A stretch of 32,550 nt of DNA. It comes from Micavibrio sp. TMED27. GTDB taxonomy: Bacteria > Pseudomonadota > Alphaproteobacteria > Micavibrionales > Micavibrionaceae. The DNA lies in contig NHCG01000006.1 of assembly GCA_002167715.1 (NCBI GenBank), forward strand, positions 1-32,550, written 5' to 3'. The notes under the pieces were generated by a model that saw nothing but the letters and a program-made list of their open reading frames with translations, had not been told where the DNA came from and ran no database searches. Positions 5,601 to 31,200 of the stretch are shown here, piece after piece. The position numbers were made by a program, and so were the translations under genes. Positions within the stretch are counted from its first letter, which is position 1; each line of letters starts with the position of its first letter.

Positions 5601-6032
5601 ATGCGTCATATTACACAAGAAGGTATAGATTTAATCAAACGGTTCGAGGGCTTCTCTCCAACCGTTTATTTTTGTCCTGCTGGATACCCAACAATCGGCT
5701 ACGGCCACGTTGTCAAAAAGGGCGAGGATTTCTCTGGCGGGATCACTCAAGGCGAGGCTGAGGAATTACTGCGTCTAGATGCTCAAATTGCGGAACGTGC
5801 CGTCCTACGCTTGATTACAGTGCCATTAACGGATGGGCAATTTGATGCGCTTGTATCATTCACCTACAATTTAGGGTCAGGCGCACTACAACGCTCAACT
5901 CTGCGCCGCGTCATTAACCGTCAGAACCACCATAATGTTCCAGCTCAGCTTATGCGCTGGGTCTGGGCTGGTGGCCGTAAGTTAAGGGGGCTGATCCGGC
6001 GACGGGAGGCAGAGGCACGTCTGTATGCCTAG
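5601..6032 (+). CDS. GH24 phage lysozyme (endolysin)
   Basis: A 143-residue T4/P22/P21-type lysozyme with AGGAGG six bases before the ATG. The catalytic Glu16 (KRFEGF), Cys25 and Thr31 (YPTIGYGH) keep the E-8x-(D/C)-5x-T spacing. The Cys at the second position is an accepted variant. Later family landmarks are LTDGQFDALVSFTYNLG and the C-terminal GLIRRREAEARLY. It cleaves the glycan of peptidoglycan during lysis. The N-terminus has no SAR or signal segment, so export depends on the upstream holin. Full family length. Confidence 0.95.
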   Translation: MRHITQEGIDLIKRFEGFSPTVYFCPAGYPTIGYGHVVKKGEDFSGGITQGEAEELLRLDAQIAERAVLRLITVPLTDGQFDALVSFTYNLGSGALQRSTLRRVINRQNHHNVPAQLMRWVWAGGRKLRGLIRRREAEARLYA

Positions 6033-6039
6033 GTTTTAT

Positions 6040-9021
6040 TTACCTTTGCTCACCTTGAACTTCTCGCAAGGCGCGGCTAAAGAAGTGGCGCGTTGCTTGT
6101 TCTCTTGCCTGCGCATCGCTCATCACAATATTTTGTAATTGTTTATCTTTTTGGAAGAGTTTGATTGCCCCCTCAAAGAAAGCATGTGAGAAAGCGCCGA
6201 ACACGACATCTGGTGGATTGTTTTTCAACATTTCACGAAGATCTTCATCTCCTAAAATCTCTCTATTCACTTGTTCGAAGCGTAAGAAATCTTCTTTAGT
6301 AAATTCTGTCCCATGGCGCTGGTTAAAGTTATCGATAATCTCCGACAATGCCTTTTCTTCATCTTCGGTGTATGTTTTTGCGCCAAAGTCTTTAATGGAA
6401 GATAAAGCCGTTGTAGAGCCAGCTTGCAGAGATGCATTGCCATGTTCTTTTTCTTCGACGCGGAAGGCTTGTAGGCGAAGCATGTCTTCTGTGATTTCAA
6501 TCTCTGGAGGTACATCACGGCTCGGTAATAGCTTAATAAGCCACGCTGAGTAAGAGAATAGCTTCTCAAGGTTAGTGTCCTCTAATCGTACAACTTGCGC
6601 GACGAAAGAATAAAAGCGCATATAGCTTTTCAAAAGTTGGCGAAATTCTTCGCGCTTGCCTTCATCTTCTTCATACTCAAAGCGCTGGACAGCATTGCGT
6701 ACTAGTGCTTCCAGCTTAATACGGTCGTGTGGGTCTAAAATACCCTTATAATAGATTTCTGCGAAACGATTTACTTCTTCTTCATCAATAATTGAGAAGG
6801 CTTTAATGCGCCCCTCTAGTTCATAAATTTGATTGGGGTCTGAAATATCTTCGACAGATGTAGCTTCGAAAAATGGCTTAAAAGCATTTTGAATGTCTTC
6901 GATTGTATTTTGGAAGTCCAATACAAAAGTACGCTCTTTATTGGCGCATGTTCTATTAAGACGTGAGAGTGTTTGTACGGCCTGTAAGCCATCTAATTTA
7001 CGATCAACATACATGGCGCACAATTTAGGCTGATCAAATCCTGTTTGATATTTCTCGGCCACTATTAACAATTGATACTCCGAAGTTTCAAACTTCTTAG
7101 GCAGTTCAGTTTCTGCAAAGCCATTAACGTCGGCTTCGGTGTAGGTTTCCCCCTCAAAATCCATTTCACCGGAAAAGGCAACAAGCGCCTTTAAGTCCCC
7201 ATAGTGATGGCTTTCAATATATTTTTTGATGGCAAAGTAATATTTTAAGGCATGCTCTCGGCTTTGCGTAACGACCATAGCTTTAGCGGCCCCATGTATT
7301 TCTTTGGCCACATGGCGTCGGAAATGCTCAACGATAACTTCCACTTTTTGCGCGATAGCGGTGGGGTGGAGTGTTGCAAAGCGTGCAACTTTACGCTGGG
7401 CGCTTCGTCCTGAAAGGTCTGGGTCGTCCTCAATAACTTTCTCAAGCTGATAATACGCTTTATAAGTCATGTAGTTTTGCAAAACATCAAGGATAAAGCC
7501 TTCTTCGATGGCTTGGCGCATTGAGTAAAGGTGGAATGGATGCGGCAGTCCGTCAGCCCCCTTAATTCCAAAGCGTTCAAGCGTCACATTCCGTGGTGTG
7601 GCCGTAAAAGCAAAGTAGCTCACATTGGATTGTGGGCCGCGTTGGCGCTGGTAATCGGCAATCATATCCTCAATACCAGATGGCGCATCTTCTTCACTAT
7701 CCCGGGACAGTGTTTTTGCGAGGTTATCCGCATGCTTACCAGATTGTGATCCATGTGCCTCATCAATCAGTACCGCAAATTTACGGTCGCCTTGCCCTGA
7801 TATCTCTTTCAAGTGATCTGTAGAGAATTTGTGAATCGTCGTAATAATAATACGTGCGCCATTTTGGATGGCTTCTTTAAGCTGGCGCGATGTGCCGTCA
7901 ATCTTTTGCACAACACCCTTTGTTTGCTCAAATTGGGCAACGGTGTTTTGTAACTGGCGATCAAGCACAACACGGTCAGTCACGATAATAGCCGTATTGA
8001 ACACCGGCATATCATTATCATCATGGAGGGTAATCAGGCGGTGGGCAGTCCAGCCGATAGTGTTTGATTTACCAGAGCCAGCAGAGTGTTGAATGAGATA
8101 ATTATGACCTGCATCATTAACCTTGGCGTGTCCAATCATTTTCAAGACCGCATCTAATTGTTGAAAGCGCGGGAAGATCATCACTTCTTTGCCGTCGCTG
8201 GTGTCCAAATGCATAAAGCGACCGATAATATCGAGGAAGATATCACGGCTAAAAATGGCTTTGCCTTCGGGTTGATCGGCATATAGATAAGCGACGCGGA
8301 ATTCATCTTTGATATCCGCGTTACCGGCGCCACCATCGCGCCCACGGTTAAAGGGAAGGAAGCGTGTTTTACCGTTATTCAAACGGGTAGTCATGGATAT
8401 ATTGTCTTCGTCCAAAGCAAAATGCACCAAAGCGCCGCGCTTAAAGGCCAATAAAGGCTCACCCGCTGGGGAGCGGTCTTTTCTGTATTGGCTCTCAGCG
8501 TGTTTAAAAGTTGATCCTGTGCTGAGGTTTTTGCACTCCAGTGTCGCGAGCGGGATACCGTTCACGAACAAAGCTACATCGATGCGGTTGCCGTTTTTAT
8601 TGCTGTATTCCAGCTCATCAATAACACTCAGGATATTGGCGTTATAAAGGCGCAATAAATCATCGTTGAGGCCAGAGGCTGGCTTAAAAAAGCAGAGGGA
8701 GAATTTGATGCCTGGGATCAGTTTAATGCCTTGGCGCAACACATCTAGAGTGCCGCGTTGCTTTAACGCTTTCTCAAGCTGTTTTAAAAATTCTGTTTCG
8801 GCGGCGGTGGAGTATTGTTCTTCCAATCGCGACCATTCATCGGCTTGGGGGTCCTTAATGAATTGCAACACCAGCTCTTTATCAAGAGCTGTCTCAATAT
8901 CATAGTCAGTCTTTGTATTACGCTTAATATAGCCCTGAGAGCCGATAAGCTGCGCAATTAAATGATTTTGAAAGACGCGCTCTAAGTGAATACTGTCCTT
9001 GGTATAGGTTTGGTTTGTCAT
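6040..9021 (-). CDS. hsdR: Type I restriction enzyme, R (motor/nuclease) subunit
   Basis: A 993-residue HsdR of normal length. The N-terminal nuclease domain shows the PD-(D/E)xK residues Asp148 and Glu162-x-Lys164 (FVNGIPLATLECKN). Walker A is HSAGSGKSN at about 312-320, the DEAD-box-like motif II is LIDEAHGSQ (DEAH at about 420-423) and motif III FAFTATP at about 470-476. A later helicase lobe (YQTGFDQPKL, LSRLNR) and a helical C-terminus complete the subunit. It translocates DNA using ATP and cuts far from the unmethylated site when joined to HsdM and HsdS. The start overlaps the hsdS stop in ATGA, so translation is coupled. The stop lies 8 nt from the convergent endolysin stop. Confidence 0.97.
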   Translation of the reverse strand: MTNQTYTKDSIHLERVFQNHLIAQLIGSQGYIKRNTKTDYDIETALDKELVLQFIKDPQADEWSRLEEQYSTAAETEFLKQLEKALKQRGTLDVLRQGIKLIPGIKFSLCFFKPASGLNDDLLRLYNANILSVIDELEYSNKNGNRIDVALFVNGIPLATLECKNLSTGSTFKHAESQYRKDRSPAGEPLLAFKRGALVHFALDEDNISMTTRLNNGKTRFLPFNRGRDGGAGNADIKDEFRVAYLYADQPEGKAIFSRDIFLDIIGRFMHLDTSDGKEVMIFPRFQQLDAVLKMIGHAKVNDAGHNYLIQHSAGSGKSNTIGWTAHRLITLHDDNDMPVFNTAIIVTDRVVLDRQLQNTVAQFEQTKGVVQKIDGTSRQLKEAIQNGARIIITTIHKFSTDHLKEISGQGDRKFAVLIDEAHGSQSGKHADNLAKTLSRDSEEDAPSGIEDMIADYQRQRGPQSNVSYFAFTATPRNVTLERFGIKGADGLPHPFHLYSMRQAIEEGFILDVLQNYMTYKAYYQLEKVIEDDPDLSGRSAQRKVARFATLHPTAIAQKVEVIVEHFRRHVAKEIHGAAKAMVVTQSREHALKYYFAIKKYIESHHYGDLKALVAFSGEMDFEGETYTEADVNGFAETELPKKFETSEYQLLIVAEKYQTGFDQPKLCAMYVDRKLDGLQAVQTLSRLNRTCANKERTFVLDFQNTIEDIQNAFKPFFEATSVEDISDPNQIYELEGRIKAFSIIDEEEVNRFAEIYYKGILDPHDRIKLEALVRNAVQRFEYEEDEGKREEFRQLLKSYMRFYSFVAQVVRLEDTNLEKLFSYSAWLIKLLPSRDVPPEIEITEDMLRLQAFRVEEKEHGNASLQAGSTTALSSIKDFGAKTYTEDEEKALSEIIDNFNQRHGTEFTKEDFLRFEQVNREILGDEDLREMLKNNPPDVVFGAFSHAFFEGAIKLFQKDKQLQNIVMSDAQAREQATRHFFSRALREVQGEQR

Positions 9022-10361
9022 GACGCCATTTCCTCCTCAATTTTATCCAAACGGCGATCAACCGTATTTCTATTCTTCCATGCCTCAATATCCAGCTGGC
9101 CTGTAACAGCTTCGGTAATAAGGGAAGATTTCATTTCTATTAGTTTATCAATTGATCGATTTTCTTTTTCTATGATTTCGTCAATTATGGATGTTTTATT
9201 ATCTAAAAATTCAGCCAACTCTTTTTGTTCATTTAAAGGGGGCAACAGTACAGGTACATTTTTCAATAAATTTTGCCCCAAAGAAACGCGGGTAACCAAA
9301 TTCATTTCTTTAACAAAAAATAATCTAGGAATATCACTTCTAAAGTAATACTTTGAATACTCTGGATACAGAATGTTTTTATCTGGTCTGAACCTTATTA
9401 AAAAACCAGAAAATGTTGCTTTCTCAATAGTTTCTGTACATACAGATGAAATGCCTATTTCTTCCGCTGTTTCCGATGTACGAGTGAAAAATACATCTCC
9501 TCTTTTTACAGAAAATCTTCTCTGGTCATCCTCAGAAGACATTGCTAAACCATCAAGACTTCTCGGTAATAATGGATTTTTATATACGTCTCCATAACCT
9601 ATAAATGGATAACCAGAGCCAAAATATTCAGCACCTTGGCTAATACCATTTTGTAGCGTTCCTATGTGGCGCAACCTTTTTAATTTCCAATGTTTTGGGA
9701 ACTTATTTAGCCAAAACAAATCAGGTGTTTTCATTTCGGCCTCTGAAATACCCTCTCGTATAGTTCTGTCAATTATGTGCGATCTTTTTTCTTCAATCGC
9801 GTTAATCAATTTATTCTTTTTTTCAATAAGCTGATCAATTCGAGATGTTTCTATATCTAAAAAATTTGATATTTCCTCTTGTTTTTCTATATCTGGATAA
9901 ATAAGAGGTATATGTTCAAACTGCTGCTTATTAAAAGAATACCGCATACCAAAGCTAAGTTTCTCAAAATAATTAAATCCATACTTCAAACCATAAAAAT
10001 AATATTCAAGATATTTAGGCAGTAAAGTACCTTGAATATCAAAAACTATGTATAGGTTACTAATGCAACCGTCATACTCGCTCACACCACATAAAATTGG
10101 GGTGGCATCAAAGTCTCGTGGAGTAAAAACGAATTGACCTTTTGATACAATTTGGTGGCCAATATAGCTTTCAGTGGATTTACCGAAAGATAAATCAGTT
10201 TTAACTTTGATCCCTTTTTTTGTTAAGCTCAGGACCGTTGGGTTTTCATCTTTATTTTTATTTGCTTGATATCTTTTCACCGCCGCTTTCATTCGAGCAT
10301 GTGTCCATCCAAAAGGAATAGGTGACAATTCAGCTCTATGGTTATCTACAACACGCATCAT
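9018..10361 (-). CDS. hsdS: Type I restriction-modification specificity subunit
   Basis: A 447-residue HsdS with two target recognition domains. TRD1 is about residues 1-150. A central conserved helix follows (QEEISNFLDIETSRIDQLIE, about 152-171). TRD2 is about 205-370, and a second spacer helix (NEQKELAEFLDNKTSIIDEI) follows it. The two helices are near copies, as expected for a full bipartite specificity subunit. The start ATGATG overlaps the hsdM stop by 4 nt. The TRD-coding DNA is visibly richer in A/T than hsdM and hsdR, a common sign of exchanged TRDs. The recognised sequence cannot be predicted from this alone. Confidence 0.96.
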   Translation of the reverse strand: MMRVVDNHRAELSPIPFGWTHARMKAAVKRYQANKNKDENPTVLSLTKKGIKVKTDLSFGKSTESYIGHQIVSKGQFVFTPRDFDATPILCGVSEYDGCISNLYIVFDIQGTLLPKYLEYYFYGLKYGFNYFEKLSFGMRYSFNKQQFEHIPLIYPDIEKQEEISNFLDIETSRIDQLIEKKNKLINAIEEKRSHIIDRTIREGISEAEMKTPDLFWLNKFPKHWKLKRLRHIGTLQNGISQGAEYFGSGYPFIGYGDVYKNPLLPRSLDGLAMSSEDDQRRFSVKRGDVFFTRTSETAEEIGISSVCTETIEKATFSGFLIRFRPDKNILYPEYSKYYFRSDIPRLFFVKEMNLVTRVSLGQNLLKNVPVLLPPLNEQKELAEFLDNKTSIIDEIIEKENRSIDKLIEMKSSLITEAVTGQLDIEAWKNRNTVDRRLDKIEEEMAS

Positions 10362-12379
10362 GCGGCAACTCCCTTAAGTAAACTGGCAATTTCTGCTTCA
10401 AGCGTTTTAAGTTCGTCGTCAATTTCGGCGACAGGGCGTGGTGGCACATACTGATAGAAATAACGGTTAAAATTGATCTCATACCCGACACGACCGACTT
10501 CACCGTCAGTTGGGTCAGTGTGGCTTTCATCTACCCATGCATCTGGCACAAATGGCTCAACTTCGCGTGCGATATAATCTTTCCAATCTTCTTTAAGTGG
10601 CACAAGCTCGTGGTCGCGCAGATCGCTATCGGCTTCTATTGTGCCATTACTCTTTTTACAAACCTCCGCTGTTTCATCCTTTTCAGATAGTGCAGAAAGG
10701 ATTGCTTTTTTAAGAGGCGCTGGAATAGTGAAGTCAAGTGAGCTGAGCGCTTTCTTCAAGGCTTTCTCAAAAACATCACGGTTTTTAAATAGGTCCGTTG
10801 GCACATCCGTAGAAAGTGCCTCAAGCAGAGCGGTTTGTTCTTCATCTGATAGCCTTATAAAGGCTTTTTCTGCTTTCAAAAGCTCTAGGCGTTCAGCATT
10901 AAATTGGAAGTTCAGCTTTAGCGGACGCTCGACTCGTACTTCACGATACGCAAAGTCAGCAACATCAAAAATCTTTGAATACTCACCCCAGCCAGAATTA
11001 CCATTCAGCATTTGGCTATACATCTTCACAATTTCATTACGAGCGTCATCAGAGATTTCCCGGCGCTTGCTTCCTAAACTCTTTCTCATAGAATTCCAAA
11101 AGCGTTCACCGCTGGCATCAATCAATTGTACTTTGCCAAGGCGCGGGTCTTGCTTACGGTTTGTTAGCATCCATACGTATGTCTGAATTCCCGTGTTGTA
11201 GAACAAGTCGGTTGGTAGCGCGATTATGGCCTCAACCCAATCATTCTCCAGCATCCAACGGCGTATTTCACTCTCGCCAGAATTTGCGCCACCGGTAAAG
11301 AGCGGTGAGCCGTTCATAACAATACCAATACGAGAGCCAGCCTCATCATCACGCATTTTGGCAATCATGTGCTGTAAGAATAGTAACTGTCCATCTGATA
11401 CGCGTGGTAGGCCTGCACCAAAACGTCCGTTTGCGCCCATTTCTTTTGCCTCATCAATGATGGGGTCTTTGTACTTCTTCCAATCAACACCATATGGTGG
11501 GTTTGAAAGCATGTAATGAAATTTCTTATCTTTGTGCGCATCCTCCGTCAGCGTGTTGCCATAGGCAATCTGCTCAGGGTTATGGCCTGTCACCAGCATG
11601 TCTGATTTACAAATACCAAATGACTCACCGTTTAACTCTTGCCCATAAAGCTCAACACGAATTTTCTCATTATGTGCAATCATCGCTTCCTCTGTAAGGG
11701 CAAGCATACCGCCTGTACCGCATGCAGGGTCGTAAACTGTGCGAATAATTCCTGTGCCTGATAGGGCTTCAACATCATTGATCAGCAATAGATCCACAAT
11801 TAAGCGGATAACCTCACGTGGGGTGAAATGTTCCCCAGCTGTTTCATTAGAGATTTCAGAGAACTTGCGGATTAAGTCTTCGAAAAGATAGCCCATCTCA
11901 ATATTTGAAACTTTGTCTGGGTGTAAATCGATTTGAGCGAATTTTTCAAAGACCTGCCATAGTATGCCGCCATCTTTAAGGCGCTTTAGTTGGTCGGTGA
12001 AAAGGAATTTATCAAGGAAAATGTCGCGGATGCTGGTGTTAAAGTTTGTGATGTAATCCAGTAGGTTTTTATGAACATCGCCTGCATCCTGACTACGGAT
12101 TTTTTGGAAGGTGAGCTTACTCACGTTATAAAGCTTTAATCCGTTACCAACGGCGCTAAAAAGCATCATATCCTTAGTATGGTCATCCACGCCTTCTGGG
12201 AGGGCGTCATAAGCGCTGATCACTGCATCTTTTGATGATTCAAGGATACAATCCAAGCGTCTTAATACAACAAAGGGCAGAACCACTTTGCCATATTCGG
12301 ATTGCTTAAAATCTCCGCGCAAAATCTCTGCAATTGACCATGCGAGGGAGCTAAGGCTTTGTACTTTTGCTGTTGTCAT
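10358..12379 (-). CDS. hsdM: Type I DNA methyltransferase (N6-adenine) subunit
   Basis: A 673-residue M subunit. The N-terminal helical domain (SSLAWSIAEILRG) is followed by the SAM-binding motif DPACGTGGML at about 217-226 and the catalytic NPPY at 293-296, which identify an N6-adenine gamma-class methyltransferase. The C-terminus after about residue 560 is a helical extension ending RPVAEIDDELKTLEAEIASL, likely to contact HsdS. It methylates the host copy of the hsdS-defined site and also forms part of the restriction complex. Its ATG shares the final A of the TAA stop of the upstream HTH gene (TAATG). Confidence 0.97.
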   Translation of the reverse strand: MTTAKVQSLSSLAWSIAEILRGDFKQSEYGKVVLPFVVLRRLDCILESSKDAVISAYDALPEGVDDHTKDMMLFSAVGNGLKLYNVSKLTFQKIRSQDAGDVHKNLLDYITNFNTSIRDIFLDKFLFTDQLKRLKDGGILWQVFEKFAQIDLHPDKVSNIEMGYLFEDLIRKFSEISNETAGEHFTPREVIRLIVDLLLINDVEALSGTGIIRTVYDPACGTGGMLALTEEAMIAHNEKIRVELYGQELNGESFGICKSDMLVTGHNPEQIAYGNTLTEDAHKDKKFHYMLSNPPYGVDWKKYKDPIIDEAKEMGANGRFGAGLPRVSDGQLLFLQHMIAKMRDDEAGSRIGIVMNGSPLFTGGANSGESEIRRWMLENDWVEAIIALPTDLFYNTGIQTYVWMLTNRKQDPRLGKVQLIDASGERFWNSMRKSLGSKRREISDDARNEIVKMYSQMLNGNSGWGEYSKIFDVADFAYREVRVERPLKLNFQFNAERLELLKAEKAFIRLSDEEQTALLEALSTDVPTDLFKNRDVFEKALKKALSSLDFTIPAPLKKAILSALSEKDETAEVCKKSNGTIEADSDLRDHELVPLKEDWKDYIAREVEPFVPDAWVDESHTDPTDGEVGRVGYEINFNRYFYQYVPPRPVAEIDDELKTLEAEIASLLKGVAA

Positions 12380-18832: not shown

Positions 18833-18915
18833 ATCGTCGTTTTTGAAAGAGAACGCATACCAGTATTAGTGAGAGGGTCGAATTGTCCCTTATTACTAAA
18901 ACAAGGAGATAAAAT
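18833..18915 (+). promoter_or_regulatory. Early-gene leader, copy 1
   Basis: ATCGTCGTTTTTGAA (18833-18847), then ATACCAG and TATTAG, recall the better conserved leaders at 20014 and 23371. TTAGT and ACTAA plus AGGG/CCCT allow a weaker hairpin. The ribosome binding site AAGGAG is six bases before the ATG at 18916 and is outside the hairpin. The match is looser than between copies 2 and 3. Confidence 0.45.
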
Positions 18916-20293: not shown

Positions 20294-20758
20294 ATGGAAA
20301 TTAACATACTACAAGAATATACGAGCCTTGAGGAAATGAGCGTTAAAGAGCTTCTCAAAGAATGGCCACGCTATTTTGATACGCCACCAAAAACAAAATC
20401 GAATAAAAAATATCTGGTTAATGAGCTGATCTACCGTGTGCAAGAATTGGCTTATGGAGGCCTCACCAAAAAGACCATTGATCGGCTGGAGGCGCTGGCT
20501 GAAAGCAAATCCTTGAACGAACGAAAATACGACAACACACGACTTGCCATTGGCACGCATCTTATTCGCGAGGTCAAAGGCGTGGAGCATCACGTTACGG
20601 TTTTAGAAGATGGTTATGAGTACCAAGGAACAAAATATAAAAGCCTTTCTGGTGCGGCTTTTGCTATTACCGGAACGCGCTGGAACGGCAACGCCTTCTT
20701 TGGACTGCTTAAAAATAAAGCCACCCGCCCATATCATAAATCAAGGGGGCGCAAATAA
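20294..20758 (+). CDS. DUF2924 family protein
   Basis: A 154-residue basic protein with the family's N-terminal region (EEMSVKELLKEWPRYFDTPP, LVNELIYRVQELAYGG) and C-terminal hallmark SLSGAAFAITGTRWNGNAFF. It is nearly always found directly upstream of a large serine recombinase in alphaproteobacterial mobile elements, as here, where its stop overlaps the recombinase ATG (TAATG). A role as a DNA-binding directionality or loading factor is plausible but unproven. Confidence 0.92.
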   Translation: MEINILQEYTSLEEMSVKELLKEWPRYFDTPPKTKSNKKYLVNELIYRVQELAYGGLTKKTIDRLEALAESKSLNERKYDNTRLAIGTHLIREVKGVEHHVTVLEDGYEYQGTKYKSLSGAAFAITGTRWNGNAFFGLLKNKATRPYHKSRGRK

Positions 20759-22110
20759 TGGCAGAAAAGAAGATTTTACGTTGCGCTGTGTATACGCGTA
20801 AATCCACCGAAGAAGGTCTGGATATGGATTACAATACGCTGGATGCACAGCGCGAGGCAGGTGAAAAATACATCGAAGCCATGCGCCATGAAGGTTGGCG
20901 TATCATACCAGAGCAATATAACGACGGTGGTTTTTCGGGTGGAAATATGGAACGCCCAGCTTTAAAAAAATTGCTGCGAGATATCGAGGCAGGACGTATA
21001 GATATTGTAGTAGTTTACAAAATTGACCGCTTATCACGCTCGCTGGCAGATTTTGCGAAGATGGTGGAAGTATTTGATAAGCATGACACCAGCTTTGTGT
21101 CTGTGACCCAGCATTTTAACACCAAGGATTCCATGGGGAGATTAACGCTCAATATTTTGTTGAGCTTTGCCCAATTTGAACGCGAGGTCACAGGCGAGCG
21201 CATCCGCGATAAATTTGCAGCATCAAAGAAAAAAGGTATGTGGATGGGTGGGCCGCCACCGCTAGGCTATGATGTGATTGAGCGCAAATTGCTCACGAAC
21301 CCCGCTGAAGCAAAACAAGTTAAGCATATTTATGAGCGGTTTATTGCGCTGGGATCTATCGCAATGCTGGCTAAGGAATTAAATAATCAAGGCTATCGCA
21401 CAAAATCATATGTAAGTCAGACAGGCAATAAGCAAGGCGGAAAAGTCTTTAGCTTGCAAGCTCTGCGCACCATTTTAAAGAACCGTCTATATCTTGCGGA
21501 AGTACATCACAAAGGAAAGCATTACCCTGGTCAGCATCAAGCTTTAATAGACCAGAATTTGTTTGACCAAGCGCAAGATATTTTTGCGGAAAATGCCGGT
21601 TCTAAACGCAAGCGAACCTATACAGCAAAATCAGATGCTCTACTTAAAGGCATTATTGTTTGCGGTGGTTGCGAAGGAGCGATGTCCCCCACTTATACAA
21701 AGAAGAAAAATAAACAATATCGTTATTATATCACCAACTCATACCGCCAACATACTTGTGGGGAATGCCCTGTTAGCAGAATTCCTGCAGGAGAGATTGA
21801 AGAATTAATCAAAAGCCAGCTCAAAGCTATTTTTGCCTCCCCCAAAATATTGGTCGAGGTTTGGCGGTCCATGCGCGAACACGATAAGAATTTTCAAGAA
21901 TATGAAATGCATGACGCTCTACAAAAACTTGGCTCATTTTGGGATCATCTTTTTCCAGCAGAGCAAAAACGTATTGCGCATTTGTTAATTGAGAGAGTGG
22001 TCGTGAAGTCGCAAGGTGTTGATATTGAATATCGCGCCAGCGGGTTAGAGAACATCATTCACGATCTACAACAAACCATCAATAAAAATATGAATGAAAG
22101 GAGCGCATAA
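20758..22110 (+). CDS. Large serine recombinase (integrase)
   Basis: A 450-residue serine recombinase. The catalytic domain has Ser16 in VYTRKSTEEG, the arginine motif KIDRLSRSLADF and FAQFEREVTGERIRDK. The recombinase domain follows (PPPLGYDV, then the helical ALRTILKNRLYLAEVHHKG) and a zinc-ribbon-like region with CGGCEG and CGECPVSR. The C-terminal part is short. It probably integrates and excises the element by att x att recombination. It is coupled to DUF2924 upstream and 1 nt apart from the next gene's start. Confidence 0.96.
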   Translation: MAEKKILRCAVYTRKSTEEGLDMDYNTLDAQREAGEKYIEAMRHEGWRIIPEQYNDGGFSGGNMERPALKKLLRDIEAGRIDIVVVYKIDRLSRSLADFAKMVEVFDKHDTSFVSVTQHFNTKDSMGRLTLNILLSFAQFEREVTGERIRDKFAASKKKGMWMGGPPPLGYDVIERKLLTNPAEAKQVKHIYERFIALGSIAMLAKELNNQGYRTKSYVSQTGNKQGGKVFSLQALRTILKNRLYLAEVHHKGKHYPGQHQALIDQNLFDQAQDIFAENAGSKRKRTYTAKSDALLKGIIVCGGCEGAMSPTYTKKKNKQYRYYITNSYRQHTCGECPVSRIPAGEIEELIKSQLKAIFASPKILVEVWRSMREHDKNFQEYEMHDALQKLGSFWDHLFPAEQKRIAHLLIERVVVKSQGVDIEYRASGLENIIHDLQQTINKNMNERSA

Positions 22111-22111
22111 T

Positions 22112-22516
22112 ATGGCTTTAAGCCAAGATAAGTCTGAGCAAAAAATTATTGTTCACGTGCCGATAAACTTAAGAAAATGGGGTGGAAAGAAAGTCGTAGT
22201 TGGTCCTGTTGGCCAAGATTTACAAAGATTGGATCGTCATATTCGTAAAGACGAAAAACTGCTCAAGGCGCTGGGGCGTGCTTATAGATGGCACAAATTA
22301 ATTGAAACTGGGCATTATAAAAACGCTCAAGCAATCAGCGATAATGAGAATATTAACCGATCATACGTGTTGCGCGTTATGCGCTTAATGCGTCTGTCTC
22401 CCAAGGTCATTCAATCTATTCTCGATGGAAATCAACCTGATGGATTTGGTTTGTCTTCAGTTGAAAAAAGCTTTCCTGCTCTATGGAGTGAGCAAGAACA
22501 ACTATTTGGTTTTTGA
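22112..22516 (+). CDS. Recombinase-linked HTH-like protein
   Basis: A 134-residue protein, MALSQDKSEQKIIV onward. The ATG at 22112 is used because AAGGAG lies nine bases upstream, inside the end of the recombinase. The middle contains a ParB/KorB-like helix-turn-helix pattern, AQAISDNENINRSYVLRVMR, followed by SPKVIQSILDGNQPDG. This family follows the serine recombinase in related elements. It may act with it in DNA binding; no biochemical role is known to me. Confidence 0.82.
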   Translation: MALSQDKSEQKIIVHVPINLRKWGGKKVVVGPVGQDLQRLDRHIRKDEKLLKALGRAYRWHKLIETGHYKNAQAISDNENINRSYVLRVMRLMRLSPKVIQSILDGNQPDGFGLSSVEKSFPALWSEQEQLFGF

Positions 22517-22574: not shown

Positions 22575-22716
22575 GTATGACCACTTTCCAGATGCCTAAA
22601 AAATATCATTCTAGCAACGGTTGTAGATGCCTGTTGGCTGGGGTTTTTGAGTACGTGCGTATTTGTGCATGCCAGTTTTGACCTGTAAGCGGCTGAAATA
22701 ATACTCAGATTTTGCA

Positions 22717-22764
22717 TTCTTTCCTCTGCGGAGACTTTTCTCCGCTGAACAAAAGAGGAAAGAA
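22717..22764 (+). promoter_or_regulatory. Long hairpin sequestering the ribosome binding site of the sigma-like gene
   Basis: TTCTTTCCTCT (22717-22727) pairs perfectly over 11 bp with AGAGGAAAGAA (22754-22764), which is the ribosome binding site. Stacked inside it, GCGGAGA (22728-22734) pairs with TCTCCGC (22739-22745) around a CTTT loop, leaving an eight-base bulge on the 3' side. Together 18 bp are paired and the structure ends two bases before the ATG at 22767. It should strongly inhibit translation until opened. Confidence 0.75.
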
Positions 22765-22766
22765 AA

Positions 22767-23339
22767 ATGTCGAACAATCGTTACGGCGGCGTAGATTCCT
22801 ACGCCGCTTTTTTTATTGGTTATAAAGCCAGAACACTTACAAAATCGCCGTTCTTTACGGCAGATGATTTTGAAGATCTGCAGCAAGAATTGATGCTGGC
22901 ATATCTTCATGCATGGCCCAGTTTCGATGAAAGCAAAGGTGATCGTCGAAGCTTTATTAAATCCGTGATTAACAACCATGCAATTAATCTCATTGCAGAG
23001 GCTGAAACTCAAAAACGCTGGACCGGTCAAAAGGAGCTGTCACTTTCCACAACTATGGGTGATGAAGAAAGTTCTATGGAGTTGCTGGATAGTATTGCCA
23101 GTGAACAAGCCCTCTGGGGAGATAGCTTTGCTTCAAATTCTTATCTGATGGCAGAGCATAATATGGATATGAGTAAGGTGCTTGCCGAGATGCCTGAAGA
23201 TATTCGTAGCACCTATGAGCTATTGAAGTATCAAAGCATCACTGAGGCATCTCATTCTACAGGAATTCCCCGCACGACGTTATCCAGCAGAGCAAAAAGA
23301 TTGCGCGAATATCTAGAAAAACTGGGGCTTAGAGAATGA
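22767..23339 (+). CDS. Sigma-70-like (ECF-type) RNA polymerase sigma factor
   Basis: A 190-residue protein. The segment DFEDLQQELMLAYLHAWPSF followed by SFIKSVINNHAINLI is a sigma region 2 pattern. After an acidic linker the C-terminal TEASHSTGIPRTTLSSRAKR is a region-4-like helix-turn-helix. The length is that of group 4 sigma factors. It could direct polymerase to element promoters, including the conserved leaders, but that target assignment is an inference. No anti-sigma partner is adjacent. Translation appears controlled by the hairpin at 22717. Confidence 0.8.
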   Translation: MSNNRYGGVDSYAAFFIGYKARTLTKSPFFTADDFEDLQQELMLAYLHAWPSFDESKGDRRSFIKSVINNHAINLIAEAETQKRWTGQKELSLSTTMGDEESSMELLDSIASEQALWGDSFASNSYLMAEHNMDMSKVLAEMPEDIRSTYELLKYQSITEASHSTGIPRTTLSSRAKRLREYLEKLGLRE

Positions 23340-23370: not shown

Positions 23371-23442
23371 CCGTCGTCGTTTCTGAGGCCAAAACTGTAC
23401 CTGCTTATTAGGGACAACAAACTCTAATAAGGAAAAGGATAA
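23371..23442 (+). promoter_or_regulatory. Early-gene leader, copy 3, with hairpin over the ribosome binding site
   Basis: GTCGTCGTTTCTGAGGCC starts at about 23373, followed by CTGTACCTGC. CTTATTAG (23404-23411) and CTAATAAG (23424-23431) form a perfect 8-bp stem with a 12-base loop. The right arm abuts the GGAAAAGGA ribosome binding site. The order and wording parallel the leader at 20014. Confidence 0.65.
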
Positions 23443-23670
23443 ATGAACAAATCAATAGATGATCACATTGATGCTGGTGAGGCTGTTTTCAAGTGGGTGC
23501 AACATACGCCTGTAGGACAATTAAAAACGCTTGAGGATAGCAAACTATCTGAATTGCGAGAGGAGCTGATTAAAGAGGTCAGAAGTGTCGGTCGCGCCCT
23601 GCAATGGGTTGACGGCATTATTAAACTCAAAAACATTGAGCGTCATAAGACGAGCAATAAGAATGCATGA
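23443..23670 (+). CDS. Small hypothetical protein upstream of the primase-helicase
   Basis: A 75-residue helical, charged protein (LSELREELIKEVRSVGRALQ). No membrane segment, signal peptide or known motif is visible. The stop overlaps an ATG of the primase-helicase frame (ATGA at 23667). It is controlled by its own conserved leader, which suggests that the leader governs the whole replication module. Confidence 0.65.
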   Translation: MNKSIDDHIDAGEAVFKWVQHTPVGQLKTLEDSKLSELREELIKEVRSVGRALQWVDGIIKLKNIERHKTSNKNA

Positions 23671-23681
23671 GGGCATCATGC

Positions 23682-25814
23682 ATGGCAGATCATAGCAACC
23701 CAAACGTCATCGCGTTAAAGCCACCTGACGCGAAAGACATCAAACAGCGCTTATTACAAAGCCTACCATCAACGCTGCACGCCTTGTTGCCAAACGGTGT
23801 GCTTCGCGCTGGAAAGTTTATCGTGGGTGATATCAGCGGCGGTAAAGGCGAAAGCCTTGTTGTTGAAATGAATGGCTCAAAGGCTGGGCTATGGCATGAC
23901 TTTGCCACTGGCGATGGTGGTGACATTCTTGATCTTTGGGCTGGCGTGAAAGGGTTTGATCGCAAAAGCCAATTTAAAGAACTGATCACCGATATTCAAA
24001 GCTGGATTGGCGGCGGCATTCCCACATCACAGCCAAAGCAATGCAAACAAAGCAGCTATAAACAATCTCAAAAATTAGGCGAGCCGACAGCCAAATGGGA
24101 TTATACCGATGCACAAGGGGCGCTAATTGCCAGTGTGTATCGCTATGACCCCAAAGGCCAACGAAAGCAATTCCGTCCATGGGATGCTGTTAAAGGCGTA
24201 ATGAAGGCCCCTGATATTCGTCCGCTTTATAACCAGCCCAATATCGCCAAAGCAAAAACAATTATTCTTGTTGAGGGTGAAAAATGTGCCGATGCATTAA
24301 TCGGCTTAGGCATTTGTGCCACCACCGCCATGAACGGTGCAAAAGCACCGATTGATAAAACAGACTGGTCACCGCTTAAAGGCAAGCAGGTATTGATCTG
24401 GCCTGACCATGATGAGGCTGGATTGAGCTACGCTCGCAGGGCAGCAAGCGCTTCTGCCCGCGCTGGGGCGTTACAGGTCAAGATACTTAAAGTCCCGCCT
24501 GAGAAGCCCCCTAAATGGGATGTCGCCGATGCTGTCGCAGAAGGTTTAAATATCCACGATATATTGAAAAACTGGGATCGGGTTGTGGCAAAAGATAAGC
24601 CGATCAAGCCTGATACCATTCCGCTTTATAGCGTTGCAGATCTGCAGGCCGATCACAGCCCCATGCCCGAAGACTTAATATCCCCTCGCGTTCTAACACC
24701 GGGTGGCATGTTGGTGTTTGGCGGCGCACCCAAAGTGGGTAAAAGTGATTTTCTTATATCACTACTCGCCAACATGGCCGCAGGTCAGGATTTCCTTGGA
24801 TTATCTAGCAAGCGTCCGGTGCGCATCTTTTATCTGCAGGCGGAGGTTCAGTACCATTATCTGCGTGAGCGTATTCAAAAGCTAAACCTAGCAGATGAAA
24901 CGCTGGAGCGGTTAAGTCAGAACTTTGTGATGACGCCACAAATTCGGCTGATACTCAATGATGGAGGTATCGATAAGATTGTGCGCTCTGTTAAGGCACG
25001 TTTTGGTGAACGACCACCTGATATCATCGCCATTGATCCTATTCGTAATGTGTTTGATGGCGGTGGGATTGGCGGAGAAAATGATAATGATGCGATGATG
25101 TTCTTCCTCTCCCGGCGGGTGGAAGAATTGCGCAATCAGATTAATCCAAACGCTGGGTTAATTCTTGCGCACCACACAAAGAAAGTCTCCAAGAAATATG
25201 TTGAGGAAGATCCGTTCCAAGCGCTCAGTGGCGCTGGTTCGCTGCGATCTTATTACACATCGGGCATTATTCTTCACCGCCTTGATGAAATGCGCCCCGA
25301 GCGCAACCTCATCTTTGAGCTACGCAATGGGCCAGAGATTGTGCAAAAAACAATATTGCGAGATGCATCGGGCTGGCGTGAGGTCGATAGTCAGGCAGAA
25401 CGCCTTGCTATGCGTTCACAGGCAGTAAAACTTGATGCGCAACAACTGCGCAAAAAAGATGCCGTCATTGGTTTAATTTACTCTGAAGCCTCCCAAGGGC
25501 GCGTTTATACGGCGCGGCAGTTTTCCGACACGTTTGAGAATAAGTCAGGCTTGGGAAGTTCTCGTTCTTTACGCAATCGATTGAATGCACTCAGCACCAA
25601 GGGTCATATCAAATTCTTTAAGAATGCCGATATTTATGGCCTGCCTCAAGCGCAACGTAGTCGCCAAGGGTACATCTGTGTTGAGGGTATGGCGCTGGGT
25701 GACGGCACGCGTATTTTGCCAACGCACTTCAAGCACCCGAAAACAAATGAAGTCCTCCCTGTTGATGATCCTGAAAACTGGATCGTCGCTCTTAATAGTG
25801 GGGGGCTATCGTGA
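23682..25814 (+). CDS. Bifunctional primase-helicase (TOPRIM plus RepA/AAA ATPase)
   Basis: A 710-residue replication protein. An N-terminal domain ends in HDFATGDGGDILDLW (about 72-86). The TOPRIM motifs follow, ILVEGEKCADAL (about 195-206) and IWPDHDEAG (about 239-247). Then come Walker A GGAPKVGKS (347-355), Walker B DIIAIDPIRN (about 447-456) and LAHHTKK (about 495-501), characteristic of hexameric RepA/RecA-like helicases. The C-terminus has a winged-helix-like RSLRNRLNALSTKGHIKFF. The ATG at 23682 has GAGGG nearby, while 23667 is a coupled alternative. It would drive element replication, and a repeat cluster lies just downstream. Confidence 0.92.
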   Translation: MADHSNPNVIALKPPDAKDIKQRLLQSLPSTLHALLPNGVLRAGKFIVGDISGGKGESLVVEMNGSKAGLWHDFATGDGGDILDLWAGVKGFDRKSQFKELITDIQSWIGGGIPTSQPKQCKQSSYKQSQKLGEPTAKWDYTDAQGALIASVYRYDPKGQRKQFRPWDAVKGVMKAPDIRPLYNQPNIAKAKTIILVEGEKCADALIGLGICATTAMNGAKAPIDKTDWSPLKGKQVLIWPDHDEAGLSYARRAASASARAGALQVKILKVPPEKPPKWDVADAVAEGLNIHDILKNWDRVVAKDKPIKPDTIPLYSVADLQADHSPMPEDLISPRVLTPGGMLVFGGAPKVGKSDFLISLLANMAAGQDFLGLSSKRPVRIFYLQAEVQYHYLRERIQKLNLADETLERLSQNFVMTPQIRLILNDGGIDKIVRSVKARFGERPPDIIAIDPIRNVFDGGGIGGENDNDAMMFFLSRRVEELRNQINPNAGLILAHHTKKVSKKYVEEDPFQALSGAGSLRSYYTSGIILHRLDEMRPERNLIFELRNGPEIVQKTILRDASGWREVDSQAERLAMRSQAVKLDAQQLRKKDAVIGLIYSEASQGRVYTARQFSDTFENKSGLGSSRSLRNRLNALSTKGHIKFFKNADIYGLPQAQRSRQGYICVEGMALGDGTRILPTHFKHPKTNEVLPVDDPENWIVALNSGGLS

Positions 25815-28264: not shown

Positions 28265-28678
28265 ATGGCGATTAAAAACACATTAGAAGGAAAAATTACT
28301 TACCGTGTTAAGCGTAGCGCGGTGAGCGTGTTTGTGCGTCAAGATTTTGAGGATATTGGCGGCTACGATCAAGTCGGTCGGATTATACGACAATTAGTAA
28401 AAAAGGGATTGCTGATTAATATCGGCTATGGTGTGTATGCACGTGCTAAGCAATCTGCCCTCAGTGGAAAAACCATTCCTGAAAAGCCTTTGCCTGAGTT
28501 GGCGCAAGAGGCTTTGAATAAACTCGGTATTAAAATTATGCCTACAAAGGCGCAAAAATTTTACAACGAAGGAAAATCAACTCAAGTTCCAACAGGGCGT
28601 GTGATTGGTGTGCAAGGCCGTATTTCTCGTAAAATTGGTTATAATGGGAAGTATGTATCCTTTGAACAATATGCTTAA
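28265..28678 (+). CDS. AbiEi/DUF6088-like antitoxin
   Basis: A 137-residue protein. The N-terminal winged-helix part is FVRQDFEDIGGYDQVGRIIR followed by LVKKGLLINIGYGVYARAK, the typical DUF6088/AbiEi DNA-binding domain. The C-terminal part (KLGIKIMPTKAQ, STQVPTGRVIGV) is the antitoxin domain. In AbiE systems this protein represses transcription and counteracts the nucleotidyltransferase toxin encoded next. The toxin start overlaps its end. Confidence 0.88.
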   Translation: MAIKNTLEGKITYRVKRSAVSVFVRQDFEDIGGYDQVGRIIRQLVKKGLLINIGYGVYARAKQSALSGKTIPEKPLPELAQEALNKLGIKIMPTKAQKFYNEGKSTQVPTGRVIGVQGRISRKIGYNGKYVSFEQYA

Positions 28679-29582
28679 TCGTGAAACCATTTTAGAAGCT
28701 GCCGCAGAAACTGGTATTGACCCAGCTTTCATCGAGAAAGACTGGTATGCTGTACAGCTATTAAAATCTCTAAATGAGTTTGAGAATGATCGTGGCGTAG
28801 AATTGGTTTTCTCCGGTGGCACGAGCCTATCAAAAGGCTTTGGTCTCATTAAACGCTTTTCCGAGGACTTAGATTTTATTTTATGCTCATCTGGCAATGT
28901 GTCTGTTGGAGGTAGGCGTTCATTTAGAAAGTCTGTGATTTCACACATTACATCCGATCTACGCTTTACAATTGAAGATGACAAAGTTCAGCGCGGTGAT
29001 AGTCACCGCTTTTTCAAAGCTCCTGTTGAATATGAGATGGGGTTTGAACAAGAATTCTTGCGTCCCTATCTACAATTGGAAATGACCTTTTCTGACCATC
29101 GACTGCCACTTTTAAAGCAAGACGTGCGCTCTATTGTCTCTGAGTTATCTGGTGGAGAAGCAGAAACAGAAATAACGTGTGTTTCTCCAATTGAAACAGC
29201 CTCTGATAAAGTGAGCGCGTTAACGTGGCGAGTAGTCGTGAGAGACAGGGATTCAGATAAAGATGACCCAACAATGATCCGCCACCTCCATGACCTAGCG
29301 GCGCTTAAAGCTTCAATCTGGGAAGCCAAGGATGTTTTTATTGGTTGCGCACAACAGTCATTGCAAAGCGATCAAGAACGCCGTGGCGGTGATGTTATTG
29401 CCAACATGAGCATCGCTGATCGTTTAACAAAAGCGTATGAAATGCTATCAACTGATGTTGTCTACCGTGAAGAATACAAACAGTTTGTGCAGAACATGTC
29501 TTATGCAGATGAAGACGAGAAAATCTCATTCGATGGGGCATTAGAAGCACTGAAAGAGATTATTGGTCTGATCACTTTGTAA
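28671..29582 (+). CDS. abiEii: AbiEii/AbiGii-type nucleotidyltransferase toxin
   Basis: A 303-residue protein, MLNRETILEAAAETGIDPAF onward. The start overlapping the antitoxin stop (28671) is preferred; 28653 is an in-frame alternative. The nucleotidyltransferase motif is FSGGTSLSKGFGLIKRFSED then LDF, giving the GGTS and D66-x-D68 pair of the DNA polymerase beta superfamily. IEKDWYAVQLL is the usual N-terminal landmark. It is the toxin of a type IV or type II-like abortive infection pair, thought to transfer nucleotides to tRNA. Confidence 0.93.
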   Translation: MLNRETILEAAAETGIDPAFIEKDWYAVQLLKSLNEFENDRGVELVFSGGTSLSKGFGLIKRFSEDLDFILCSSGNVSVGGRRSFRKSVISHITSDLRFTIEDDKVQRGDSHRFFKAPVEYEMGFEQEFLRPYLQLEMTFSDHRLPLLKQDVRSIVSELSGGEAETEITCVSPIETASDKVSALTWRVVVRDRDSDKDDPTMIRHLHDLAALKASIWEAKDVFIGCAQQSLQSDQERRGGDVIANMSIADRLTKAYEMLSTDVVYREEYKQFVQNMSYADEDEKISFDGALEALKEIIGLITL

Positions 29583-30252: not shown

Positions 30253-31200
30253 TCAACTGGCGATTTGATAAAAGTCTCTCATCCGTGCGTTGAGAATGAT
30301 GATCATTTTTCTGATGCATGCGATGAGAGCGACTTTTGGTTTTTTACCACGAGCTATCATGGAGAGATAAAAATCACGAATGACACCATCATATCGCGTT
30401 GCCGTTAATGTCGCCAGATAAAGAGCCTGACGGACAGCACCGCGACCGCCTTGAATACAACGCTGGCCTCGCATTGTTCCGCTGTCGACATTGTGAGGAG
30501 CAACACCAACAAGGGAGCTAATGGCTTTGTTTCCAATGCGACCAAGTTCTGGCAAGTCAGCCAATAATGATGCCGCAGTGATTGGCCCAATGCCACACAT
30601 TTCTTGCAACATTTTGTACGCATCGTGGAATGTCTTGTTCGATTTTATCAGTGCACGAATTGCATTATCAAGAGCTTTGATTTCTTGTTTCAAGATTAAA
30701 ATCATGGCTTGAATCGAGTCAACCGCCATCGACGATTTGGCTTTCTCAAGCCGGTTATTTTCTTCCGCATGCATCTTGGTCACTTGCCTGCGGCGAATGA
30801 CCAAATCCTTTAGAGCGTTCTGATCTGCCGTGATGGGGATACTGGTTCGTGGCGACATGAGCATGCCATACTCTGCGATCACCTGTGCATCAATGGCATC
30901 TGTTTTTGCCAATCGCCCTTTGGCTCTGGCGAAGTCACGAATATATTTGGCGTTGACCTTCGCCAATAAAATATCGTTTCGTGATTGGATTTCTCGTTCC
31001 AAATCCCGTTCGTAACCACCACTGGGTTCGAGAACAATCAAGGGCTGTTTGCCTCGTGCCAACGCCCATTTTATGAGGCGTGCGATTCCGCCTCCATCAT
31101 TATTAAACCGCATGGCCGATTGGTCGTTCATGCAATAAACATCAAGGTGAGCCTTCGCTACATCAATGCCGATAGAAAGTATTTTATGTTTTTGAGTCAT
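30253..31200 (-). CDS. IS110-family transposase (DEDD recombinase)
   Basis: A 315-residue transposase. The N-terminal DEDD RuvC-like domain has SIGIDVAKAHLDV, VLEPSGGYERDL and the later TDAIDAQVIAEYG, supplying the four acidic residues. The C-terminal Tnp domain runs GIGPITAASLLADLPELG to GGRGAVRQALYLATLTA, including the conserved segment that holds the catalytic Ser region in this family. IS110 recombinases are guided by a bridge RNA made from the element's noncoding end. Full length, with no frameshift, so it may be active. Confidence 0.95.
   Translation of the reverse strand: MTQKHKILSIGIDVAKAHLDVYCMNDQSAMRFNNDGGGIARLIKWALARGKQPLIVLEPSGGYERDLEREIQSRNDILLAKVNAKYIRDFARAKGRLAKTDAIDAQVIAEYGMLMSPRTSIPITADQNALKDLVIRRRQVTKMHAEENNRLEKAKSSMAVDSIQAMILILKQEIKALDNAIRALIKSNKTFHDAYKMLQEMCGIGPITAASLLADLPELGRIGNKAISSLVGVAPHNVDSGTMRGQRCIQGGRGAVRQALYLATLTATRYDGVIRDFYLSMIARGKKPKVALIACIRKMIIILNARMRDFYQIAS

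Follow-up and report, generated by a model that had tools for sequence, protein, structure and literature searches.

A leader hairpin over the ribosome binding site and a terminator-like element in the first codons of a phage sigma factor gene from Micavibrio

We identified two RNA elements at the beginning of an ECF-like sigma factor gene in Micavibrio: a leader hairpin (H1) that closes the ribosome binding site, and an intrinsic-terminator-like element (H2) that lies within the first codons of the same gene. The main interest of the locus is this pairing of a conserved ribosome binding site lock with an early-codon terminator. We propose that H1 and H2 may together constitute a translation-coupled two-step gate on a phage sigma gene, a reading to which we give a probability of roughly 0.5. 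The DNA analyzed here, referred to as the window, comprises the first 32,550 nucleotides of contig C15 in a genome of 2.5 Mb, and the sigma gene, its RNA elements and the promoter-like motifs described below are all on its plus strand.

H1 (22717-22764) is predicted by folding to comprise an outer stem of 11 pairs, UUCUUUCCUCU (22717-22727) with AGAGGAAAGAA (22754-22764), and an inner stem of 7 pairs, GCGGAGA (22728-22734) with UCUCCGC (22739-22745), closed by the loop CUUU. These are the 11- and 7-bp stems named in the original prediction, made from the window sequence, which placed a stacked hairpin over the ribosome binding site of the sigma-like gene at 22717-22769. The distance of two bases that it gave between stem and start codon is also correct, as only positions 22765-22766 separate H1 from the AUG at 22767. 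Its account of the stacking holds for both stems but omitted an 8-nt unpaired bulge on the 3' side (UGAACAAA, 22746-22753); only on the 5' side do the two stems run on without a break. The comparison with shuffled sequence that had been proposed as a check yielded a fold energy of -25.2 kcal/mol for 22717-22769 against a shuffle mean of -9.75 (z -6.06), with none of 200 shuffles as good. The 108-nt leader containing H1 and H2 combined gave a z of -6.86. Folding and the co-variation described below both place the SD in a leader helix, as in a lock of the T4 gene e type.

The hairpin is retained upstream of homologous sigma genes, where the original prediction had suggested looking for it, and its arms co-vary. 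Among 19 close leaders (near-duplicates included), 17 have folds with p<=0.05, and the unpaired fraction of the SD region ranges from 0.03 to 0.38. The arms diverge while pairing is retained, as illustrated by CTACTCCTG/CAGGAGTAG (L008), CTCCGAG/CTCGGAG (L013) and CTGCTGT/ACAGCAG (L042). RNAalifold on an automatic alignment (A4) recovered H2 only and no sequence-plus-structure consensus of H1, because the H1 arms vary in length, and we therefore used an alignment-free arm-swap test, in which the pairing of each right arm with its own left arm is compared with its pairing to the left arms of relatives over 20,000 permutations. In the 13 of 19 close rows left after removal of near-duplicates (L002, L018, L008, L014, L025 and L028), cognate arms paired at -14.05 kcal/mol versus -9.45 for swapped arms, and no permutation reached the observed mean. 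The distant set, reduced from 35 to 27 rows by removal of L057, L061, L070, L074, L076, L077, L090 and L094, gave -13.53 versus -10.21 kcal/mol, again with 0 of 20,000 permutations at the observed mean. The own arm is outpaired by the arms of others in two close relatives (L015, ranked 10th of 13, and L004, 9th of 13) and in three distant ones (L040, L044 and L049, ranked 27th, 18th and 17th of 27); in L044 and L049 the hairpin is short and spans the point at which the arms were separated. Applied to seven other genes of the element, the test revealed no advantage of cognate arms in five and a weaker one in two, namely the 75-aa gene downstream of sigma (permutation value 0.0008) and the DUF2924 gene (0.0016). 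Several loci are duplicates, one DNA being present in two collections (L006/L020, L007/L022, L010/L023 and L018/L024), and L043 is without upstream sequence.

The statement that this hairpin is far stronger than the leaders nearby proved true across the clade. The mean unpaired fraction of the SD is 0.13 for sigma (n=13) versus 0.36-0.65 for seven neighbor genes (n=5-13 each), and the mean leader fold is -18.7 versus -5.0 to -12.2 kcal/mol, making sigma the most closed leader of the eight genes compared. The distant set has p<=0.05 folds in 17 of 35 leaders and an SD unpaired fraction of at most 0.38, the upper end of the close set, in 20 of 35. Distant sigma leaders have a mean z of -2.02 (n=29), versus -0.21 for 248 other ORFs of the same contigs (Mann-Whitney 1e-10, which is not a strict probability as the rows are related), and their SD accessibility differs from that of control ORFs by a small margin (0.36 versus 0.43, p 0.004). 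These 29 were drawn from 71 loci, two of which (L038 and L043) belong to the close set; starts were inspected for 51 of the other 69, and duplicates and matches starting only from residue 10 were excluded.

Conservation with arm co-variation supports, at the sequence level, a role of H1 in gating production of the regulator, which is the part of the original prediction that we retain; the heat trigger suggested alongside it is disfavored. Pairing of the SD is the usual anatomy of RNA thermometers, but in the folding model the SD region of all 13 close relatives stays mostly paired between 15 and 60 C, with little change over that range, and no thermometer family occurs among the Rfam matches, even those below threshold. 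We consider a thermometer extremely improbable and rejected it. A search of Rfam 15 found no family at gathering score: the best sub-threshold matches, both far below it, were to the ylbH leader (opposite strand, E 0.0015, 25 of 50 bits) and to ncS025 (this strand, E 0.037, 23 of 46 bits). Opening of H1 on the full leader by a phage or host RNA-binding protein or a small RNA, with H2 responding through translation, would fit the unpaired stretch beside the SD arm, which is often rich in A and C (GAACAAAA, CAAAACAA, ACCACCAA) and resembles loops in other leaders of the element, downstream of the motif P2 described below (ACCAACAAAA). Such loops could be a shared recognition site, but they may merely reflect freedom from pairing, and we regard this route as decidedly unlikely.

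H2, which the original prediction missed and which is probably half of the device, occupies codons 7-17 (22785-22818). It consists of a stem (22785-22794/22799-22808), the loop ATTC and a T-run (22808-22814), and the sequence from codon 7 reads GGCGGCGTAG ATTC CTACGCCGC TTTTTTT. By sequence, an intrinsic terminator overlaps a translated ORF here, as in ribosome-mediated transcription attenuators. Its start corresponds to ORF position +19, and an initiating ribosome is expected to cover the RNA to about +15 to +17. H2 thus lies just beyond this cover, so translation would have to proceed, not merely start, to block it.

Evidence for H2 comes from terminator scans, a synonymous-codon test, Phe codon usage and a pattern search. 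A scan of 10 kb gave 20 terminator-like sites, where shuffled sequence would give 10.7, and H2 has more G-C pairs than any other of them. A strict rule applied to 191 kb with 295 ORFs of at least 100 aa returned 17 terminators, nine of them inside an ORF in the sense orientation, and H2, in eight elements, accounts for eight of these nine. The ninth is a terminator-like hairpin at 5637-5667 of the window, at the start of an ORF (5601-6032) that, from inspection by eye, we take to be lysozyme-like. A search of 135 genomes of the order with a degenerate H2 pattern gave 17 sites, every one at a sigma gene, and these correspond to all 17 order-level sigma matches that begin at residue 1; as the pattern was built from known members, their recovery follows by construction, and the informative part is its occurrence nowhere else in the 135 genomes.

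Relative to synonymous recodings, the H2 fold has a mean z of -3.55 across the 19 close rows, near-duplicates retained, with p<=0.03 in 18 of 19 and no significance in L012 (p 0.122). In 13 of the sigma genes, Phe15 and Phe16 are encoded by TTT in 26 of 26 cases; at their other Phe codons the figure is 51 of 81 (Fisher 8e-5). Across 13 rows 99.2% of H2 pairs are formed, with both sides changed at two pairs; two-sided changes are seen in L042 (GGCAGC..GCTGC) and in L015/L028 (GTG..CAC), and L019 has one mismatch in the stem. Covariation in H2 is modest, as 13-28 of 500 shuffles reach the observed values. The 35 distant relatives have a mean z of +0.69 at the same site, with L050 a single case at p 0.006. 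We therefore rejected H2 as a family-wide feature and, judging from sequence, consider it a property of the close clade.

The arms of H2 also form an inverted repeat at the DNA level, and the residues that it encodes do not vary across the close set at positions 8-10 (apart from position 8 in L042) and 13-16, so that a DNA operator, or mere conservation of the protein, might be invoked in place of an RNA element. We consider this very unlikely, as the fold is stronger than synonymous codons give and the T-run is maintained at synonymous sites. In addition, G-U replaces the commonest A-U at one pair in 3 of 13 rows and is itself the commonest combination at another pair, and distant relatives carry other residues (IVKQ, VVSQ and others) in place of AAFF (residues 13-16), which the right arm and T-run encode in the close set. 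Leader-peptide attenuation was also rejected, as SD-preceded upstream ORFs were found in only 3 of 13 leaders and none is conserved.

The sigma gene itself (22767-23339) encodes a protein of 190 aa that matches Pfam Sigma70_r2 (6.9e-8) and the sigma factor family PHROG 1740 (6.5e-12), and residues 34-185 match solved sigma-H in a profile search. Region 2 is recognized by Pfam, and regions 2 and 4 are both covered by longer sigma family and structure matches. The predicted structure has helical domains joined by a low-confidence linker (88-125) with a mean pLDDT of 74.7, and the best Foldseek matches are to ECF sigma H at a TM of about 0.3; the model supports the domains but not their arrangement. 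A search of plasmid proteins found no match to sigma, and a plasmid DNA search found nine records with partial matches only. Matches in phage records came from four Wolbachia phage WO records, in which a homologous sigma with at most 26.5% identity is followed by AAA/primase-related genes. Weak SD-covering hairpins occur in two of three WO leaders (L039 and L041), with leader z values of -0.45 to -2.45. Unlike the window element, the WO loci are without H2 and their upstream genes point the other way (3 of 3 records).

Some members of the family are rearranged or shortened. In two MAG contigs (L021 at about 5001 and L022 at about 1148), sigma residues from about 51 onward are fused in frame to other ORFs, the partners being a recombinase cut at about residue 330 and an unrelated long ORF. 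Both fusions lie near the same residue, and either a chimeric element or an assembly join may explain them. In the genome that holds the window, a second element (L115, contig C15 70931-71329) has a sigma gene shortened to 132 aa; H2 is retained there, along with a hairpin that weakly resembles H1 (z -1.31).

The sigma gene is embedded in a conserved gene order. Upstream are genes for DUF2924, a serine recombinase and a small recombinase-associated protein (20294-22516), and downstream are the 75-aa gene and a primase/helicase gene (23443-25814). Of 12 stretches around close relatives, 11 share one arrangement, which runs from DUF2924 through the serine recombinase, the small gene and sigma to the 75-aa gene and then to primase/helicase and/or DUF6362; the exception is L115, which is also the only one in which sigma does not lie downstream of the recombinase cassette. 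The gap between cassette and sigma is about 2.8 kb in L120 and 3.1 kb in L019, the latter from another collection. This organization permits read-through transcripts into sigma. The window also encodes tail protein J, a gene with N-6 DNA methylase/HsdM domains and two neighbors that may form a type I restriction system (6040-12379), an AbiEii-like toxin gene (28605-29582) and an IS110-type transposase (30253-31200). A second near-identical copy of the cassette (92-100% by gene) is located at the end of contig C8 (L128) and ends inside the sigma gene.

A promoter-like motif, CGTCGTTT-N16-ACCWG, recurs around the sigma gene. One copy (P1, 20018-20046) precedes the DUF2924/recombinase cassette upstream of sigma, another (P2, CGTCGTTT-N16-ACCTG, 23375-23403) precedes the gene after sigma, and a third (18835-18863) lies before another DUF2924 gene. 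All motif matches in the loci are exactly 29 nt long, even though gaps of 10-24 were allowed. Copies before the recombinase cassette and before the post-sigma gene are both present in 8 of 12 stretches around close relatives, and no exact match was found in the remaining L115, L121, L123 and L124. The genome studied here has four matches, all in copies of the element, and the reversed control has none. We also searched 20 chosen genomes, comprising 12 of the 16 other genomes with sigma matches (G102, G051, G071 and G086 omitted) and 8 without: the motif was present in 10 of 12 sigma genomes versus 0 of 8 genomes without sigma, and 20 of the 22 matches were beside the sigma cassette and 2 elsewhere, against 5 in the control. 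This co-occurrence suggests that the motif is likely the promoter of this sigma.

The leaders that follow motif sites are short, and often a hairpin covers or adjoins the SD. Directly after P2, before the SD of the 75-aa gene at 23443, lies the predicted hairpin CTTATTAGGG/CTCTAATAAG (23404-23431), and many leaders behind the motif carry AGGA(A/C)CAA together with hairpins near the SD. The SD after P2 is exposed in L116-L120, indicating that such a lock is not a uniform rule across the regulon.

Immediately upstream of H1, and abutting its left arm, we found a tentative -10-like element, TTTTGCAT (22710-22717). In an ungapped alignment of 10 relatives, with rows anchored by eye, it is exact in five, near in four and replaced by AATTCGTT in L019; among the 13 dereplicated close relatives it is missing in four (L011, L004, L013 and L042). 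Several relatives also have a TTCWAAT-like element further upstream, which is not clear in the window, and of 10 stretches only L117 and L118, not the window, fit a stricter two-part promoter pattern before H1. If functional, TTTTGCAT would tentatively place a transcription start near 22723-22725, within the left arm. Folding predicts that, in each of the 10 aligned leaders, the SD becomes more accessible when the RNA begins at the seventh nucleotide after GCAT; for window RNA ending at +30, accessibility rises from 0.17 to 0.78 (seventh nucleotide) or 0.88 (eighth). The increase is limited in L012, L015 and L026, where values reach only 0.35-0.42 (seventh) and 0.41-0.50 (eighth). When H2 and the U-run are included in the window transcript, accessibility is only 0.46, because the SD arm pairs with the U-run.

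By analogy with T4, a start inside the left arm would alter the mechanism and not abolish it. Leader hairpins of T4 gene e and of I-TevI silence read-through RNA; gene e has late promoters within the DNA for the 5' strand of its ribosome binding site hairpin, transcripts from the I-TevI late promoter cannot form the hairpin, and soc and 49 have further sequestering structures (PMC3014915 and PMC2988022). As in the gene e and I-TevI cases described there, the SD is buried in a leader helix, and silence of a phage gene on read-through RNA is what we propose; in most aligned close relatives a tentative promoter-like motif adjoins the 5' strand. Unlike them, the locked gene here is a sigma factor with an added in-gene terminator, and its transcription start is predicted from sequence.

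We suggest that the gate would work as follows. Polymerase arriving from the upstream recombinase cassette would transcribe the whole left arm, and H1 would then hide the ribosome binding site. With no ribosome following, H2 would fold and transcription would stop about 100 nt past the start of H1, so that neither sigma nor the genes behind it would be made from read-through RNA. Opening is less certain: a transcript begun inside the left arm would be without the 5' strand of H1 and might be translated immediately, and a ribosome passing codons 7-17 would prevent formation of H2. Should the gate exist, we lean modestly towards a start in the left arm as the way in which it opens. The cassette upstream and the gene downstream both carry the likely sigma promoter, so ungated read-through from P1, which is upstream of sigma and in its probable own regulon, would create a self-amplifying loop. 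A more specific version, which we find doubtful, is that the device checks the provenance of its RNA: correct transcripts would lose the 5' strand of H1, the early-codon terminator would kill untranslated RNA, a self-amplifying sigma would be kept silent in the lysogen, and residues 13-16 (AAFF) would have been reshaped to carry the terminator.

The two elements may instead be uncoupled, with H1 a T4-type lock against read-through and H2 simply serving the upstream recombinase operon as its terminator, from a position inside the following gene. The distant family has H1 without H2, which suggests that they were acquired separately, and the available text of PMC3014915 and PMC2988022 reports no in-gene terminator for the gene e and I-TevI locks. 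A terminator inside a gene that needs expression must nonetheless be overridden, for which translation is the obvious means, and the position of H2 within the gene is identical in all 17 genes. We judge an uncoupled arrangement unlikely.

Coupling of termination to translation has well-known counterparts in the translation-coupled attenuator of pyrBI and in translation-dependent termination in P4 immunity. The terminator proposed here would likewise be overridable by translation, but no conserved leader ORF was found in 13 leaders, and the overriding ORF would be the regulated gene itself, through its first 17 codons. A prophage parallel is IsrK of Gifsy-1 (PMC4825925), a terminator-bearing RNA that exists in a short form and in a read-through form inactive in translation, much as proposed for the RNA considered here; its short form acts in trans on the long form in a circuit that works via an antiterminator, and neither feature was found here. 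IsrK is also a precedent for a prophage RNA with two uses, and the predicted terminated leader, with its two hairpins and U-tail, is shaped like a small RNA, so that the product could be a stable trans-acting RNA in its own right. This is highly improbable, given that H1 arm and loop sequences diverge with pairing kept, unlike a trans-acting seed, and that the leader RNA has no Rfam family at gathering level. Among the matches listed in a search of open-licence literature, nothing concerned this element, which is weak evidence of absence given that scope, and the available portions of PMC12558409, PMC7397232 and PMC10783043 likewise contain nothing on it.

It is unusual for a regulator gene to hold, within its first codons, an intrinsic terminator that is conserved as RNA. 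Combined with a ribosome binding site lock, such a terminator would form a compact, portable switch by which a gene is transcribed in dependence on being translated itself. The translation-coupled gate offers a testable explanation for how a sigma factor that probably amplifies its own expression may be silenced in phages of Micavibrio-type bacteria; the phage WO family may share the lock alone.
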